Of a DNA stretch of 29,232 bases, positions 3,576 through 17,845 are shown in pieces. The stretch covers positions 1 to 29,232 of the IMG/VR virus record IMGVR_UViG_3300025873_000028; one strand, given 5' to 3'. The notes below the pieces were generated by a model. It had not been told where the DNA came from. It saw only the letters and a list, made by a program, of their open reading frames with translations, and did no database searches. Position 1 is the stretch's first letter, and each line of letters starts with the position of its first letter. Both the position numbers and the translations under genes were made by a program. The DNA is from a virus.

Positions 3576-3860
3576 TCACTGGGTCCGCTCAATTGCTGGA
3601 AGATAGTGATCAAGGATCACTGTCTTGCATGTAATCATCACATCAACAGCCTGGTCAGCAACTCTGTAGGTCAGTCGTGGGTAGTTCGCGAACCAGCACT
3701 CGACCCCGTCAACATTCAATGTGACCTGGGGAATTTGTGGCACTGGCACTGGCTCTCCCGCAGTCTCTTGCTGTTCCTTTTCCACTGGGAGCGACAAGAA
3801 TACGATCGCGGTGATGACTGCTCCCGCCATTGCCGCTAGGGTGATTCTGAGTGTTGTCAT
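3576..3860 (-). CDS. Small single-pass membrane or lipid-facing protein, unknown
   Basis: The 94-residue product has an N-terminal membrane segment (LAAMAGAVITAIVFLSLPV, about residues 8-26), then a charged Glu/Gln stretch, a proline/valine linker (EPVPVPQIPQV) and a C-terminal domain with two Cys (VECWFANYPRL and MITCKTVILDHYL). The start at ATG 3860 is chosen for GGAG about 10 bases upstream; an ATG five codons earlier (3875) has a poorer site. The gene overlaps the 3' part of the Cro-like frame by about 150 bases in a different frame. It could be an early phage membrane protein affecting host functions; no family is recognised. Confidence 0.6.
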   Translation of the reverse strand: MTTLRITLAAMAGAVITAIVFLSLPVEKEQQETAGEPVPVPQIPQVTLNVDGVECWFANYPRLTYRVADQAVDVMITCKTVILDHYLPAIERTQ

Positions 3861-4095
3861 GTGGACTGACTCCAAACTTGTGTTCCGCGAATATGTCGGG
3901 GCGCAACTTCTCGCTGGAAATTGTCCCGTTGGTCAGATGTTCGATTTTTTTACAATATACAGGGGGTATTCTCCGGTGGCCTGATACCCACTGACTAACA
4001 AAACTTGGGGCAACACCTAACTCCTCGGCCAAAATCTTCTGGGAACCGAGAACCTCTGCCGCTGCCTTAACTGGATTTTGCATTTTTGGTGTCAT
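3709..4095 (-). CDS. Cro-like HTH transcription regulator
   Basis: Residues ~5-60 (MQNPVKAAAEVLGSQKILAEELGVAPSFVSQWVSGHRRIPP, then CKKIEHLTNG and LRPDIF) match the Cro/YdaS type of phage regulator: a helix-turn-helix with 'LAEELGV..S.VSQWV.G.R.IP' followed by the 'IE..T.G......LRPD' signature. It is the first gene of the leftward early operon that contains the O/P-like genes, so it corresponds to lambda Cro. It would bind the operators at 4128-4141 and 4166-4179 and turn down the repressor promoter. The open frame reaches 4134, but the predicted transcript starts near 4118, so ATG 4095 or 4083 is preferred. None has a clear ribosome-binding site. The frame runs on after the usual Cro end for about 65 residues of Ser/Gly/His-rich sequence that overlaps the next gene. 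That extension is odd and may be only weakly constrained. Confidence 0.75.
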   Translation of the reverse strand: MTPKMQNPVKAAAEVLGSQKILAEELGVAPSFVSQWVSGHRRIPPVYCKKIEHLTNGTISSEKLRPDIFAEHKFGVSPHDNTQNHPSGNGGSSHHRDRILVAPSGKGTARDCGRASASATNSPGHIEC

Positions 4096-4124: not shown

Positions 4125-4154
4125 ATATTAGCAAATGCTAATTATATTTGTCAA
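4125..4154 (-). promoter_or_regulatory. Leftward early promoter (Cro-O-P operon)
   Basis: On the minus strand a perfect -35 TTGACA (4154-4149) is followed after 18 bases by TAATAT (4130-4125). Transcription should start near 4118, just ahead of the Cro-like gene. An operator (4128-4141) covers the -10 end, so repressor binding would block it. It is the functional counterpart of lambda PR. Confidence 0.65.
4128..4141. promoter_or_regulatory. Operator copy 1 (TTAGCA-N2-TGCTAA)
   Basis: The 14-mer TTAGCAAATGCTAA has perfect 6-base inverted arms. It overlaps the -10 of the leftward promoter. The same motif recurs at 4166, 4800 and 4825, all at promoters around the repressor gene, so it is read as the binding site of the CI-like and/or Cro-like protein. 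Confidence 0.7.
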
Positions 4155-4165
4155 GCACAAATCAA

Positions 4166-4179
4166 TTGACAAATGCTAA
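4166..4179. promoter_or_regulatory. Operator copy 2 (TTGACAAATGCTAA)
   Basis: This copy matches copy 1 at 12 of 14 positions; its changed left arm doubles as the -35 TTGACA of the rightward repressor promoter. A site that overlaps the -35 of the repressor's own promoter would suit Cro-like repression or autoregulation. Confidence 0.6.
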
Positions 4180-4193
4180 TTTCATTGGATAAG
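4166..4193 (+). promoter_or_regulatory. Repressor maintenance-type promoter
   Basis: TTGACA (4166-4171) is followed after 16 bases by GATAAG (4188-4193), or after 17 by ATAAGT, a weaker -10. The start would fall near 4200, giving a leader of about 20 bases before the GTG of the repressor. It is back-to-back with the leftward promoter, their -35 hexamers separated by 11 bases. This is the lambda PRM/PR geometry, although the exact -10 is uncertain. Confidence 0.45.
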
Positions 4194-4219
4194 TTACGAT
4201 TTGTAGTCAGAATGGGAAA

Positions 4220-4546
4220 GTGGACATACAAACTGTCAGAATCAACAATTTACGAGCAACCATTGCCGGGAAGTCTGACAATGCTGCCGATTTTGCGCGT
4301 AAATTCAACCTCGATGCGAGCTACATATCCCAGGTTTTGAACGGCCACAGGGGGTTTGGCGAAAAGGCTGCGAGAAAGTTCGAGAAACAGGCAAAGTTGA
4401 GGCCAGGCGAACTCGATGAGACGAAGTCTGGTGGTCCGATTCAAGAGGTTGGGGCAATCATGAGCGACCTGGGGGCCGACGATCAGCGCCGGGTACTGGA
4501 TGCTGCGCGGGCCTTTCACGCCCTTGCGAAACAGAAAGATCGATGA
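4220..4546 (+). CDS. CI-like phage repressor without a self-cleavage domain
   Basis: This 108-residue protein has a helix-turn-helix at about residues 20-46 (ADFARKFNLDASYISQVLNGHRGFGEKAARKFE), of the lambda-repressor-like fold, and a short C-terminal helix pair ('VGAIMSDLGADDQRRVLDAARAFHAL') that may mediate dimerisation. It has no S24/LexA-type peptidase domain: lambda CI is about 237 residues with an Ala-Gly cleavage site and Ser/Lys dyad, none of which is present. It therefore cannot be inactivated by RecA-stimulated self-cleavage. GTG 4220 is the only start in this frame after the stop at 4190-4192; a typical ribosome site is lacking, so translation may be weak or near-leaderless as for lambda cI. 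It is divergent from the Cro-like gene and flanked by operators on both sides. It could instead be a CII-type activator, but its position argues for the immunity repressor. Confidence 0.7.
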   Translation: MDIQTVRINNLRATIAGKSDNAADFARKFNLDASYISQVLNGHRGFGEKAARKFEKQAKLRPGELDETKSGGPIQEVGAIMSDLGADDQRRVLDAARAFHALAKQKDR

Positions 4547-4634
4547 CCAATTTGGTTAGAATGTCTTGGTGTTCGTAGCTAAGTTGCGGGTATATCTTGT
4601 TGAATTCATCGACTAGCGGATTGGGGTTTCCCAT
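4458..4634 (-). CDS. Candidate LexA-controlled antirepressor (58 aa, unknown family)
   Basis: The frame starts at ATG 4634 with AGGTG eight bases upstream and encodes 58 residues. The N-terminal half (NPLVDEFNKIYPQLSYEHQDILTKLVIDLS) is a convincing pair of amphipathic helices, with wording like the C-terminal 'LS.E.Q..IL......L' helices of phage repressors. The C-terminal 22 residues are Arg/Pro/Gly rich and are encoded antisense to the last 89 bases of the repressor gene, so they may be constrained by it. A promoter with a LexA box lies 60-90 bases upstream. A small SOS-induced protein next to a non-cleavable repressor would fit an antirepressor that binds the repressor, perhaps by mimicking its dimerisation helices. 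That function is inference. If the protein is not made, the same transcript is still antisense to the repressor gene. Confidence 0.55.
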   Translation of the reverse strand: MGNPNPLVDEFNKIYPQLSYEHQDILTKLVIDLSVSQGRERPAQHPVPGADRRPPGRS

Positions 4635-4693
4635 TTGCGGCACCTAACTGCTTGGCTTCCCTGGGTGTTCGTTTTATCAAGCAGTCCGTTGAT

Positions 4694-4722
4694 TTTATAC
4701 TACTGTACATTTTATCAGTAAA
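4694..4722 (-). promoter_or_regulatory. SOS promoter with LexA box, leftward
   Basis: The plus-strand 20-mer TACTGTACATTTTATCAGTA (4701-4720) has the exact outer arms of the gammaproteobacterial LexA box (TACTG-N10-CAGTA) and matches the alternating-TA consensus at 15 of 20 positions. On the minus strand TTTACT (4722-4717) and TATAAA (4699-4694) are 17 bases apart, and the box fills that spacer, so LexA would cover the promoter directly. Transcription would start near 4687 and run into the 58-residue gene. Confidence 0.7.
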
Positions 4723-4799: not shown

Positions 4800-4813
4800 T
4801 TAGCAATTGCTAT
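4800..4813. promoter_or_regulatory. Operator copy 3 (TTAGCAATTGCTAT)
   Basis: It differs from a perfect TTAGCA-AT-TGCTAA palindrome only at the last base and ends on the first base of the -35 of the rightward early promoter. Same motif as the copies at 4128, 4166 and 4825. Confidence 0.65.
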
Positions 4814-4841
4814 TGACACGATATTTAGCGTTTGCTAATGT
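4813..4841 (+). promoter_or_regulatory. Rightward early promoter (recombination-integration operon)
   Basis: A perfect TTGACA (4813-4818) is followed after exactly 17 bases by TAATGT (4836-4841). Operator copies 3 and 4 overlap the -35 and the spacer/-10. It drives the genes from 4891 towards integrase and corresponds to lambda PL. Confidence 0.75.
4825..4838. promoter_or_regulatory. Operator copy 4 (TTAGCGTTTGCTAA)
   Basis: An inverted repeat with five of six arm bases paired, lying over the spacer and first bases of the -10 of the rightward early promoter. Centre-to-centre distance from copy 3 is 25 bases, which would place two bound dimers on a similar face of the helix. Confidence 0.7.
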
Positions 4842-14448: not shown

Positions 14449-15491
14449 TTTTGGTCCTCAATGAATCCCGCAGGGGGAGGGGTCGTCATTGCTTTAATCC
14501 TTTCTCTTAATAGCTGAGCGCCTTCGGAGGAATTAAGCACCCCATCATCGATCTCATCTTCGTCGATTATAGCTTTGAGGTATGAGTCAAGAATCGAGAT
14601 GTTCGACCCCATCTGGAGGTTTGATGATGGGAGCTGGTTGGCGAAGAACGCCAGCTTGTTGTTCGATCCCAGGAAAGTATCTGGAATGAGCTGAGACCCC
14701 AACCTACTGAAGCTCTTATTCATCTTTTCAATTCTTTCTGCAATATCTCCCGCGTCCATCGACCCGCCAAACAGGTTCTGGATGGCGGCTTGTGCTGACG
14801 AACCCGTCCGAATGAAGTCAGTGAAAAGCCCAGGCTCTGCTGGTGTTCCCCTAGCCTCGTCAAACAGATCAAGCAGACTGCTAATCTCGGCTATGCTTTG
14901 ACTCGCCCCGACTTTCCTTCTGCGGACATCTTGCTCTTGCTGCAAGGATGCCTGTGCGTTTTCTCGTAGTAATTCCTTCAACTGCTGTGCATCTAGCAGA
15001 CCCGCAATGTGATCCAGGGAGCTTGTCCCTTTGCCCTGGAACTTCATGAAGCCTTGTCTATCACGGGGGCCGCCGCCCATACGTATCCAGTCTTGCAGGG
15101 CCTTGGAAGTTGCTACTGGGGCCATCTGTTGGTTAATTAATGCCTCGGTGAACCCCTGTGGGTTAGCCTGTGCCAGAAAACCTTGTAATTGCTGCTGTTG
15201 GTTCTGGATTGCATCTGGCGCTCTGATTGCCGCAGGGATGTTAGACGCGGGGTTGCTCAGTAAGCCCTGGATTCCCTGGAACGCCTCTTGCTGTCTTTTC
15301 TGTGCGGACAGTTGGTTTCTCTGTGCCTGGAGCTGCTGAAACTGAGCGGTCCGGCTGTTGGCGAAATCGGTTGCCTCGGCGAATCTTTGCCCGAGGTTCA
15401 CGGGTAGCCCTGGCCTTCTTCCGCCCGCCCCCAATAGTCCGATACCCAAGTTGAATGTGGGGTTGCCCAATAGACCTTGCAAATTTGGCAT
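14445..15491 (-). CDS. Internal virion (ejection) protein, 348 aa
   Basis: A Gln/Asn/Ala-rich protein with a coiled-coil stretch near residues 45-75 ('QFQQLQAQRNQLSAQKRQQEAF'), an Ala/Gln-rich middle, and 'LKELLRENAQASLQQEQDVRRRK' around 170-192. The C-terminal domain is acidic ('AIIDEDEIDDGVLNSSEGAQ'). It lies between two other ejection-type proteins. Start ATG 15491 overlaps the previous stop as TAATG. Composition, order and coupling match ejection proteins; sequence alone gives no family name. Confidence 0.65.
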   Translation of the reverse strand: MPNLQGLLGNPTFNLGIGLLGAGGRRPGLPVNLGQRFAEATDFANSRTAQFQQLQAQRNQLSAQKRQQEAFQGIQGLLSNPASNIPAAIRAPDAIQNQQQQLQGFLAQANPQGFTEALINQQMAPVATSKALQDWIRMGGGPRDRQGFMKFQGKGTSSLDHIAGLLDAQQLKELLRENAQASLQQEQDVRRRKVGASQSIAEISSLLDLFDEARGTPAEPGLFTDFIRTGSSAQAAIQNLFGGSMDAGDIAERIEKMNKSFSRLGSQLIPDTFLGSNNKLAFFANQLPSSNLQMGSNISILDSYLKAIIDEDEIDDGVLNSSEGAQLLRERIKAMTTPPPAGFIEDQK

Positions 15492-17845
15492 TATCCGAAT
15501 GCTCCCAATAATCCACCCAGAACACCGCCAGCTTGTGAGCCACTCATACCGAACAAATCAAACCCTTTGGGCAGAAGCCCGCCGAGCTGACTTCCCAGAA
15601 GGCCACCGCCCAATCCGGTGAGCCATTTGTTTTGGTCCTGCATCGGGACTGCCTGAGAATTACCCATGAAGACTGTAGGGTTAATATTACCGAAAGATGA
15701 CCCGAGTAACTCCTGCATGGCGCTGACATCCCCGAGTTTTTCGCGCTCGGACTGAGCCTGTTGTAGGTTGCCAATATCGCCCAGGATTCCAGACTGCAAC
15801 AATCCCAACTGCGGAAGTGCGGCAGCCGCGTTGATCTGCCTGGTCCTTTCTCTGTCGGCGATATTTGTGAACTGCTGCCCCGCGTTCTGTTGTGCATCGA
15901 CAATCGAAGTAGCAGCATTTTGCTGCAATGTTCTGTCATTGATGCCAGAGGTATTTAGAATATCCGATGCGTTGACTTGTCTGCCGCGCTCTTGACTGAA
16001 CAGCCCCGCGAATGCGTCACTTGCTGCTTGTTGCATTGCTGTTTGGGCCAGTCCACCCTCGGCTGCCCCTGGTCCACCCGTGGCGAACCGAGACAATATT
16101 CCCGGCCTGGCAGCTCGGATTGATGCTTGTACAGCCTCATCGAATGCGGGATTCCCGTAGAGGTAATTGCCACTCGCGGTGCCTTCTAGCTGCGTGTTCG
16201 CTATAGGATTTAATGCCGAAGTGCCGGAAAAGGTGTTCAGTTTGCTAAGCCCACTTGGATTTTCCAGTAGGCCAGCGCCTCGATTGAAAAGCGCCTTTAG
16301 GTCTGTGTCATCTGCCACGCCCCTTAACACATCTTGTGCTTGGGTCAGAAACCCATCAGGGTCTCTTGCCATTGCCTCGGCAAGCCCTTGTGACTCAACT
16401 TGAAGCGGGTTGAATGGGGATACCAGGGCTTCTGGTTGAGACAACAGCTTGTCCAGAGAACTCAAAGCACCCGTGGAAGTGTCAGCCGAATCGACTACGA
16501 ACTGCTCCAGAAATGGGGGTATCGTAACGCTTGTGCTGAAGGTTTCGCCGCTGGGTGCGGCCCCAAATAACCCCGTCCTCTGTGCGGAGGTAAATGCAGG
16601 TATGGCCGCCGCTGCGGCTCCAACCCCAGGAAGAAGGGAAAAGCCTGTGCCATCGTCGGTGTCTGTATCAGTGGACCCCCCGCCCACAACGCCAGTGGTG
16701 CCGGACCCCCCGCCCACAACGGGAGTGGTATCGTCAGTGTCGTCAGTGGTCCCCCGTGCGTTATATGCAGCCCTGGCGATATCCCTTGGAACACCATAGA
16801 AATCAGCGGCATCGTCAATTGAGACTTTCCCCGAGTCAACGAGTCCGGCAATCTTGTCCTGCTCTTCCTGCGAGTAATCCCCGTCAACTGGAATGCCTAA
16901 TGCTTCTAACGGTGATTGTCGTGCATCGTAAGCCCCTTGAGCAACTGCCCTCGGAACCCCATAAAAGTCTGCGGCTTCGTCCACTGTAACTGCGCCGTCC
17001 TTGATAAGCCCGACAACCTTATCCTGTTCCTCGGTTGAGTAATCCCCGTCAATAGGGATGCCCAATGCTTCCAGCGGTGACTTGCGCGAATCTAATGCGG
17101 CCTGGGCGATAGCCCTTGGAACGCCAAAGAAGTCTGCGGCCTCATCGATAGTAATCACACCGTCTTCGATAAGCCCGACAATCTGGTCCTGCTCTTCTTG
17201 TGAGTAATCGCCGTCAACTGGAATGCCCAATGCCTCTAACGGTGACTGCTGAACGGGGGATGTGTTTGGGCTTCCAGCGCCGGGGACACCACCAACAACA
17301 GCGGCAGAGATTGGTTGGGTACTTACAGCCCGCTGCGCTGCCTCTGGTGAAACGCCATAGAAGTCTGCGGCTTGGTCGAGGGTCACCACACCCCTGTTTA
17401 TAAGGTCTACGACTTGAGCTTGTTCTTGGGCCGAGTAATCCCCATCAGCGGGAATGCCCAATGCCCTTAGCGGGGATGCGGGTGGAGATACGCCGGGGAA
17501 GTTTACTTTGTGCGTGTTTGCGGCTTGAGTGATGACAGAAACAGGTATCCCGGAAACATCCGAAAAGTCTCGAAGGCTGATGTCGTTTGAGGCGGCAATG
17601 TCGGCAATGAGCTGGGTCTTTTCGGCATCGGTTCGATTCGATGCGAGTATTGCGTCAACCCCAGACTTGATGAATGCGTTTCTTTGGCCTCTTGTCATCA
17701 CGGGAGGCGGGCCAAAACTTCCTGCGTCACCAGCCTGGGCCTGACCCACGGGGCTTCCAGAGCCGCCAATGCCAAACGGACCAGCATAGGGGTCGAAATT
17801 GGTATAGTCGATGTAAGATGCAGCATCTTTGGTCATATCTGTCAT
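15491..17845 (-). CDS. Large internal virion (ejection) protein with four HTH-like 55-residue repeats
   Basis: The 784-residue protein has four copies (residues 124-173, 201-255, 256-310, 311-365) of 'SPLEALGIP.DGDYS.EEQ..VVGLI.DG.VT.DEAADFYGVPR.IAQAA', a helix-turn-helix-like unit in which 'DEAADFYGV' resembles a sensor of regular DNA-binding helices. A Thr/Asp/Gly linker (~366-415) is followed by a C-terminal part with 'GNYLYGNPAFDEAVQASIRAARPGILSRFATGGPGAAEGGLAQTAMQQAASDAFAGLFSQERGRQ' wording familiar from marine podovirus internal proteins, and a Gly/Leu-rich end. A trailing 'LGGLLGAFG' suggests membrane contact. The start ATG 17845 has only a weak ribosome site (GTGAG); ATG 17836 is an alternative. 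Confidence 0.65.
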   Translation of the reverse strand: MTDMTKDAASYIDYTNFDPYAGPFGIGGSGSPVGQAQAGDAGSFGPPPVMTRGQRNAFIKSGVDAILASNRTDAEKTQLIADIAASNDISLRDFSDVSGIPVSVITQAANTHKVNFPGVSPPASPLRALGIPADGDYSAQEQAQVVDLINRGVVTLDQAADFYGVSPEAAQRAVSTQPISAAVVGGVPGAGSPNTSPVQQSPLEALGIPVDGDYSQEEQDQIVGLIEDGVITIDEAADFFGVPRAIAQAALDSRKSPLEALGIPIDGDYSTEEQDKVVGLIKDGAVTVDEAADFYGVPRAVAQGAYDARQSPLEALGIPVDGDYSQEEQDKIAGLVDSGKVSIDDAADFYGVPRDIARAAYNARGTTDDTDDTTPVVGGGSGTTGVVGGGSTDTDTDDGTGFSLLPGVGAAAAAIPAFTSAQRTGLFGAAPSGETFSTSVTIPPFLEQFVVDSADTSTGALSSLDKLLSQPEALVSPFNPLQVESQGLAEAMARDPDGFLTQAQDVLRGVADDTDLKALFNRGAGLLENPSGLSKLNTFSGTSALNPIANTQLEGTASGNYLYGNPAFDEAVQASIRAARPGILSRFATGGPGAAEGGLAQTAMQQAASDAFAGLFSQERGRQVNASDILNTSGINDRTLQQNAATSIVDAQQNAGQQFTNIADRERTRQINAAAALPQLGLLQSGILGDIGNLQQAQSEREKLGDVSAMQELLGSSFGNINPTVFMGNSQAVPMQDQNKWLTGLGGGLLGSQLGGLLPKGFDLFGMSGSQAGGVLGGLLGAFG
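16751..17476 (-). repeat. Four tandem coding repeats (~165 bp) in the ejection protein
   Basis: Units begin at about 17476, 17245, 17080 and 16915. The last three are adjacent and exactly 165 bases apart; the first is separated by a spacer of Gly/Val/Pro. At DNA level the phrase TCCCAATGCxTCx(A/T)AGCGGTGA recurs in variant form at 16900, 17065, 17230 and 17460. Confidence 0.8.

Follow-up and report, generated by a model that had tools for sequence, protein, structure and literature searches.

The immunity region of the viral contig IMGVR_UViG_3300025873_000028, which we analyzed as a window covering the whole 29,232-base IMG/VR record, is probably an SOS-responsive lysis/lysogeny switch in which a 58-residue protein inactivates a short repressor, most likely by pairing with the C-terminal hairpin of that repressor. 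The small gene (4458-4634, minus strand) lies behind a promoter carrying a LexA box and converges on the repressor gene (4220-4546, plus strand), whose product has no S24 peptidase domain. A first-pass annotation of this DNA had proposed a small gene under LexA control beside a non-cleavable repressor, and this proposal is well supported by the present analysis, which also found the same layout in unrelated phages. The best reading of the small protein is that of a putative antirepressor.

The window encodes head, portal, scaffold and terminase proteins together with an ERF-type annealing protein, a DnaD-like helicase loader and an integrase, and can therefore be assigned to a temperate tailed phage. 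The phage records yielded no near relative; searches with the integrase and replication genes gave no close relative and led to phages with other immunity regions, and no tRNA or attP clue to the host was detected. The immunity region mirrors that of lambda and comprises, in order, a Cro-like gene on the minus strand, PR, two operators, PRM, the repressor gene on the plus strand, a gap of ~250 bp, and two further operators with PL. The Cro-like gene (3709-4095, minus strand), which is the first after PR, encodes a YdaS-type HTH protein (Pfam YdaS_toxin, 1.6e-19; PHROG_35, 2.8e-20). PR (TTGACA-18-TAATAT, 4125-4154, minus strand, toward cro) and PL (TTGACA-17-TAATGT, 4813-4841, plus strand) rank first and second among the promoter candidates in the contig, and a putative PRM for the repressor (TTGACA-18-TAAGTT, 4166-4195, plus strand) ranks eighth. 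Four predicted operators have the consensus TTAGC-N5-GCTAA: TTAGCAAATGCTAAT (4128-4142), TTGACAAATGCTAAT (4166-4180), TTAGCAATTGCTATT (4800-4814), and TTAGCGTTTGCTAAT (4825-4839). The PL operon starts with a gene identified by its PHROG match (PHROG_15793, 4891-5139, plus strand), whose protein has relatives in Pseudomonas and Bordetella phages, and continues with ERF-type recombination and integrase genes. The ~250 bp gap, which corresponds in position to rexAB in lambda, is occupied by the small ORF and the LexA box.

According to Pfam and PHROG matches, its sequence and a structural model, the repressor is a CI-like protein of 108 residues that consists of an HTH domain followed by a C-terminal helical hairpin (residues 73-83 and 86-107 in the model). 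Residues 1-71 share 46-55% identity with the HTH domains of repressors from Pseudomonas phages LPPA56 and PG1, which are longer and of the S24 type. Neither Pfam nor PHROGs revealed an S24 peptidase domain in the 108 residues, whereas the relatives with the same HTH carry one, which agrees with the earlier description of a 108-residue repressor devoid of this domain. Since the domain is missing, the repressor cannot cleave itself with RecA. A fold search with the repressor gave a Rep-Ant repressor/antirepressor complex (PDB 5d50) as the top match (E 0.013) and also the SinR/SinI entry 1b0n (E 0.12). We also surveyed the HTH family of this repressor (57 short-repressor ORFs, including that of the window, some of them cut by locus ends). 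A LexA box within 2.5 kb was found for only two, namely the window, where it follows the repressor by 155 nt, and L099, where the distance is 1.9 kb, so the layout is rare within this family. A large group of short relatives of ~141 aa in Pseudomonas (L019-L111) has no LexA box within 2.5 kb.

The LexA (SOS) box TACTGTACATTTTATCAGTA at 4701-4720 has both arms exact and scores 18.1 bits, against 17.1-28.2 bits for known E. coli boxes and 9.9 bits for the next-best site in the 29 kb; the scoring matrix was built from 18 E. coli LexA boxes. In Pseudomonas and Bordetella hosts, the LexA box is of the CTG-N10-CAG type. A better site occurred in only one of 60 order-2 Markov simulations of the contig. 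With a looser LexA consensus allowing up to three mismatches, this box was the only site in the contig (0.27 expected), and such a site was present in 24% of shuffled contigs. The box lies between and over the elements of a sigma-70-type promoter on the minus strand (TTTACT-17-TATAAA, 4694-4722), which ranks 6th of 292,040 candidates in the contig and would serve the small gene. The presence of a LexA box at the promoter, as judged from the DNA sequence, is a feature of the class of LexA-controlled antirepressors, and LexA would be expected to bind here. An alternative promoter on the plus strand (TTATCA-16-TATACT, 4674-4701) ranks 15th of the 292,040 candidates and shares the same box, which may therefore act in both directions; SOS might thus fire divergently, toward both early operons.

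The small gene comprises 58 codons, preceded by the Shine-Dalgarno sequence AGGTG (4641-4645, minus strand), and its 3' end overlaps that of the repressor gene in antisense by 89 bp (4458-4546). Re-examination confirmed what had been reported of these control elements, namely the exact TACTG and CAGTA arms of the box, the geometry of TTTACT and TATAAA upon it, and an ATG at 4634 that opens, behind AGGTG, 58 codons down to 4458. The box exceeds every other site in the contig by 8 bits. The 29 codons outside the overlap show a coding signal of 0.14 bits per codon, which corresponds to the 28th percentile of true genes and is higher than that of 97% of wrong-frame open windows. The overlapping half, which is antisense to the repressor, scores like non-coding sequence. 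AlphaFold, run on the single sequence, predicts a helical hairpin at residues 6-38 (helices 6-17 and 20-38, with a pLDDT of ~90 over residues 11-30), although a single-sequence model is weak evidence and helical hairpins are common. The predicted disordered tail (residues 39-58) falls entirely within the overlap with the repressor gene. In our reading, the ORF encodes a genuine short protein, the last third of which is a by-product of the overlap. Both helices had been described as amphipathic, but the amphipathicity of the second is not significant.

No homologue of the small ORF was found in the viral, genome, phage and plasmid collections. The only match among the viral contigs (L001) lies in an unrelated gene, involves the antisense half of the ORF and is due to chance. 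Phage and plasmid matches were likewise due to chance; the genome contigs gave no match, and a single weak match among 369 genomes of one class lies inside a 372-residue frame. Pfam and PHROGs yielded no family match up to E 10, and a fold search against solved structures found no meaningful match. The suggestion of a new antirepressor family amounts to this lack of homologues in the collections searched.

The hairpins predicted for the two proteins are alike in plan, with helices of 11 and 22 residues in the repressor tail and of 12 and 19 residues in the small protein, each pair joined by a two-residue turn. SinR, which also carries an HTH domain followed by a C-terminal helical hairpin, is about the size of the window repressor; SinI is a hairpin protein of ~57 aa that inactivates SinR by pairing with its C-terminal hairpin. 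Because the predicted hairpins match and the repressor fold matches Rep-Ant and SinR/SinI, an exchange of hairpins is a natural hypothesis. In sequence, the small ORF is similar neither to its own repressor tail (p 0.25-0.35) nor to a profile of repressor tails (p 0.34) at a significant level, all shuffle p-values in this study being those of single comparisons, uncorrected for the number made. The claim that its helices resemble the repressor helix LGADDQRRVL therefore stands only in that the same kind of hairpin is predicted for both, and we rejected sequence similarity to the tail as evidence. As for the idea that the small protein poisons the dimer, structural plausibility is provided by the matching predicted hairpins, the SinR/SinI precedent and analogue ORFs that match repressor tails, but the small protein itself has no significant sequence match; as similarity to its own repressor tail is not significant, we infer dimer poisoning rather than show it. 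In the switch as we envisage it, the short CI-like repressor of a lysogen would hold PR and PL through the four operators without being open to RecA-dependent self-cleavage, and host LexA would hold the promoter at 4722-4694. DNA damage would remove LexA, and the resulting transcript would yield the 58-residue helical-hairpin protein. This protein would inactivate the repressor; the most likely route is that it pairs with the C-terminal hairpin of the repressor and so breaks up the active dimer, in the way that SinI acts on SinR. PR and PL would then fire, and Cro would take over.

To see how widespread this arrangement is, we used scans of viral contigs with LexA-type patterns, which gave 240 listed loci picked for the box only. 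Among these box-selected loci, at least 15 combine a short repressor, a convergent small gene and a LexA box (14 by a layout filter and L252 by inspection), the filter requiring a small ORF that starts after the box and is convergent with an HTH repressor ORF. In the 240 listed loci, 15 pairs passed the filter from 482 box placements versus 8 from 4,800 random placements, an enrichment that is somewhat favourable to the claim because the HTH queries included repressors from these loci. All eight random-placement pairs came from loci that also carry a real case. The analogue loci mostly have overlapping 3' ends of small gene and repressor gene. In most of the layout loci listed, the small gene encodes a conserved protein of ~95-116 aa with the motif LRC[RK]PGD, which is PHROG_2529-like and has no Pfam family. 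This protein is found behind a strong LexA box and convergent with short repressors of several HTH types (L252, L257, L273, L281, L286, L305, L311, L312, L313, L325, L370, and L417, as well as the cultured phages L344-L347); it likely represents a widespread antirepressor family, of which KS9 gp40 would be a cultured example.

In three loci (L314, L459, and L460), small ORFs of 66, 65 and 50 aa take the place of the LRC[RK]PGD protein. These ORFs are alike among themselves (p 2.5e-4, 2e-3 and 0.056), and those of L314 and L460, not that of L459, beat all 2,500 shuffles each against the repressor-tail profile. The L460 repressor is similar to that of the window (E 2.3e-5). The window has the layout of these three loci, namely a short repressor, a convergent ORF overlapping at the 3' end and a LexA box, and its ORF has position, control and apparent fold in common with theirs; similarity in sequence is not significant (p 0.37-0.74). 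It appears that the slot is filled either by hairpins resembling repressor tails (L314, L460, and probably L459) or by the unrelated KS9 gp40-like protein. A profile of the three ORFs (A6), run over 791 genomes, produced mostly chance matches, with no LexA box near any of them. One match (L469), from an unrelated genome, falls on the C-terminal tail of an HTH regulator, which is consistent with an origin from such tails.

Four cultured Burkholderia phages (KS9, Bcep176, BgManors32, and Magia), found by tblastn protein similarity without using the box for selection, all have a LexA box of 21-24 bits located 25-30 nt upstream of a gene convergent with a short repressor, and this slot contains a conserved protein family. 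The annotated 3' ends of the gene and the repressor overlap in KS9, Bcep176 and Magia. KS9 gp41 is described as the repressor on the basis of a knockout (Lynch et al. 2010, cited in PMC8310193). The gp40/gp41 pair resembles the window in having a short repressor and a convergent, 3'-overlapping gene behind a LexA box; however, gp40 is a 95-aa protein of another family (with PHROG_2529-like relatives) whose function is putative, whereas the window ORF is a 58-aa predicted helical hairpin that is not gp40-like and has no PHROG match up to E 10.

SOS-controlled small antirepressors for non-cleavable repressors are already known, as in the Gifsy phages (PMC3121763) and as Tum of coliphage 186, and so are orphan inactivators of cI (PMC10432266). 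GfoA, GftA, GfhA and FsoA of Gifsy-1, Gifsy-2, Gifsy-3 and Fels-1 are products of small genes directed against non-cleavable repressors, and the Gifsy gene promoters have a LexA box (PMC3121763), all of which they share with the proposed window gene. The Gifsy genes, however, map next to dinI, outside the immunity region and at some distance from it (PMC3121763), whereas the window gene sits within that region, converges on the repressor gene and overlaps it; a tblastn search with the small ORF over the phage records, the only comparison made here, gave no match to a Gifsy (GftA group) antirepressor. According to its sequence-record annotation, Tum is encoded by a LexA-repressed gene and inhibits DNA binding by CI, much as proposed here, but it is DinI-like, has 146 aa and is encoded far from cI. 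A Tum or DinI-like identity of the small ORF was rejected for want of a match by phmmer, blastp or Pfam, as was the antirepressor of the N15 immunity region, where only chance-level matches were obtained across the N15 frames compared. In the TF-smORF modules of Vibrio phages, the partner cI is inactivated by a tiny orphan protein with no proteolysis involved, but these modules are driven by phage transcription factors independently of SOS (PMC10432266) instead of by LexA. In the Salmonella phage Rep-Ant pair (PDB 5d50), a phage repressor is inhibited by a phage antirepressor; it is the window repressor, not the 58-aa ORF, for which this is the top fold match. The SinR/SinI pair differs from that of the window in being neither from a phage nor controlled by LexA, and the small ORF has no match to Pfam SinI up to E 10. 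The apparent novelty lies in the placement of the gene within the immunity region, where it converges on the repressor gene and overlaps it, together with the use of different proteins in one slot; a literature search returned no description of this convergent overlapping position, which is weak evidence of absence.

The main rival to an antirepressor protein is an RNA effect, in which the SOS promoter fires antisense over the whole repressor gene, collides with PRM transcription and reads on beyond PR to cro and the genes of replication, which would lower repressor synthesis and at the same time express the lytic genes directly. We consider it unlikely as the principal mechanism. The minus-strand promoter does point at PR and cro, lying ~600 nt upstream on the same strand with no intrinsic terminator found in between, and the analogue loci share this orientation and, for the most part, the 3' overlap. 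Since the transcript crosses the repressor gene in antisense and heads for cro without an intrinsic terminator, a contribution of RNA to the switch is possible. The first-pass annotation took into account neither this antisense course across cI toward cro nor the plus-strand promoter that the box also overlaps. An untranslated antisense transcript, however, would probably be stopped by Rho, and an RNA-only mechanism has no need of the conserved protein family seen in the Burkholderia slot. The antisense RNA folds no better than shuffled sequences (z +1.0), and a structured antisense RNA was rejected accordingly. A quite unlikely alternative is that the small gene is real and SOS-induced but encodes a host-directed moron or accessory SOS protein. 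The ORF has no homologue, and position alone is no proof of its role because LexA-controlled DUF1654 genes also adjoin S24-type repressors; against this, the gene lies within an immunity region at the position used by its analogues, where a repressor without a cleavage domain leads one to expect another SOS input. Such DUF1654 genes are present in Pseudomonas prophages (L016, L094, L115, and L117, among others), where each is driven in the plus direction by a LexA box lying 104-142 nt beyond an S24-type repressor; that of L116 converges on its repressor.

The same prophages lend some weight to the idea that the box mainly controls the plus-strand promoter at 4674-4701, which would read past PL into the early operon and leave the minus-strand ORF incidental. 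The rank of this promoter is high and the box begins at its -10 element, but the minus-strand promoter scores higher (10.06 vs 9.65), a strong PL already serves the next plus-strand gene, and relatives of the layout use the convergent direction, which makes this explanation very unlikely. That the box or ORF is fortuitous, the prophage being non-inducible by SOS or responding to another trigger, is highly improbable: sites with up to three mismatches are not rare in shuffled contigs and the ORF is short, but chance would hardly place a box of 18 bits on a top-ranked promoter in the sole gap of the immunity region, and the non-overlapping 29 codons carry a codon signal.

The preferred reading, a protein that inactivates the repressor, extends to a broader one that we put forward tentatively, at slightly less than even confidence. 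The loci described here would represent a recurring and apparently unnamed prophage SOS switch, in which the 3' end of the gene for a non-cleavable short repressor is overlapped by a convergent, LexA-controlled inactivator gene. Different proteins would occupy the slot, among them stand-alone repressor dimerisation hairpins (the window, L314, L459, and L460) and the KS9 gp40-like family, so that inactivators would have arisen time and again at a single fixed position, perhaps with some help from the antisense transcript. Many temperate phages have non-cleavable repressors, and the way in which damage induces these phages has mostly escaped notice, the inactivators being encoded by tiny orphan genes. 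If the position convergent with the repressor and behind a LexA box is indeed fixed, inactivator genes could be found without homology, and the unannotated gp40 slot of the Burkholderia phages would be explained. The small proteins encoded in this layout, which may take repressors apart, also form a natural set that can be tested directly.

Two further ORFs of the window gave weak Pfam matches. A 153-aa ORF beside the exonuclease (426-887) has a sub-threshold match to peptidase C4 that is probably due to chance, and a 784-aa protein (15491-17845), possibly repetitive, has several overlapping weak matches of HTH type.
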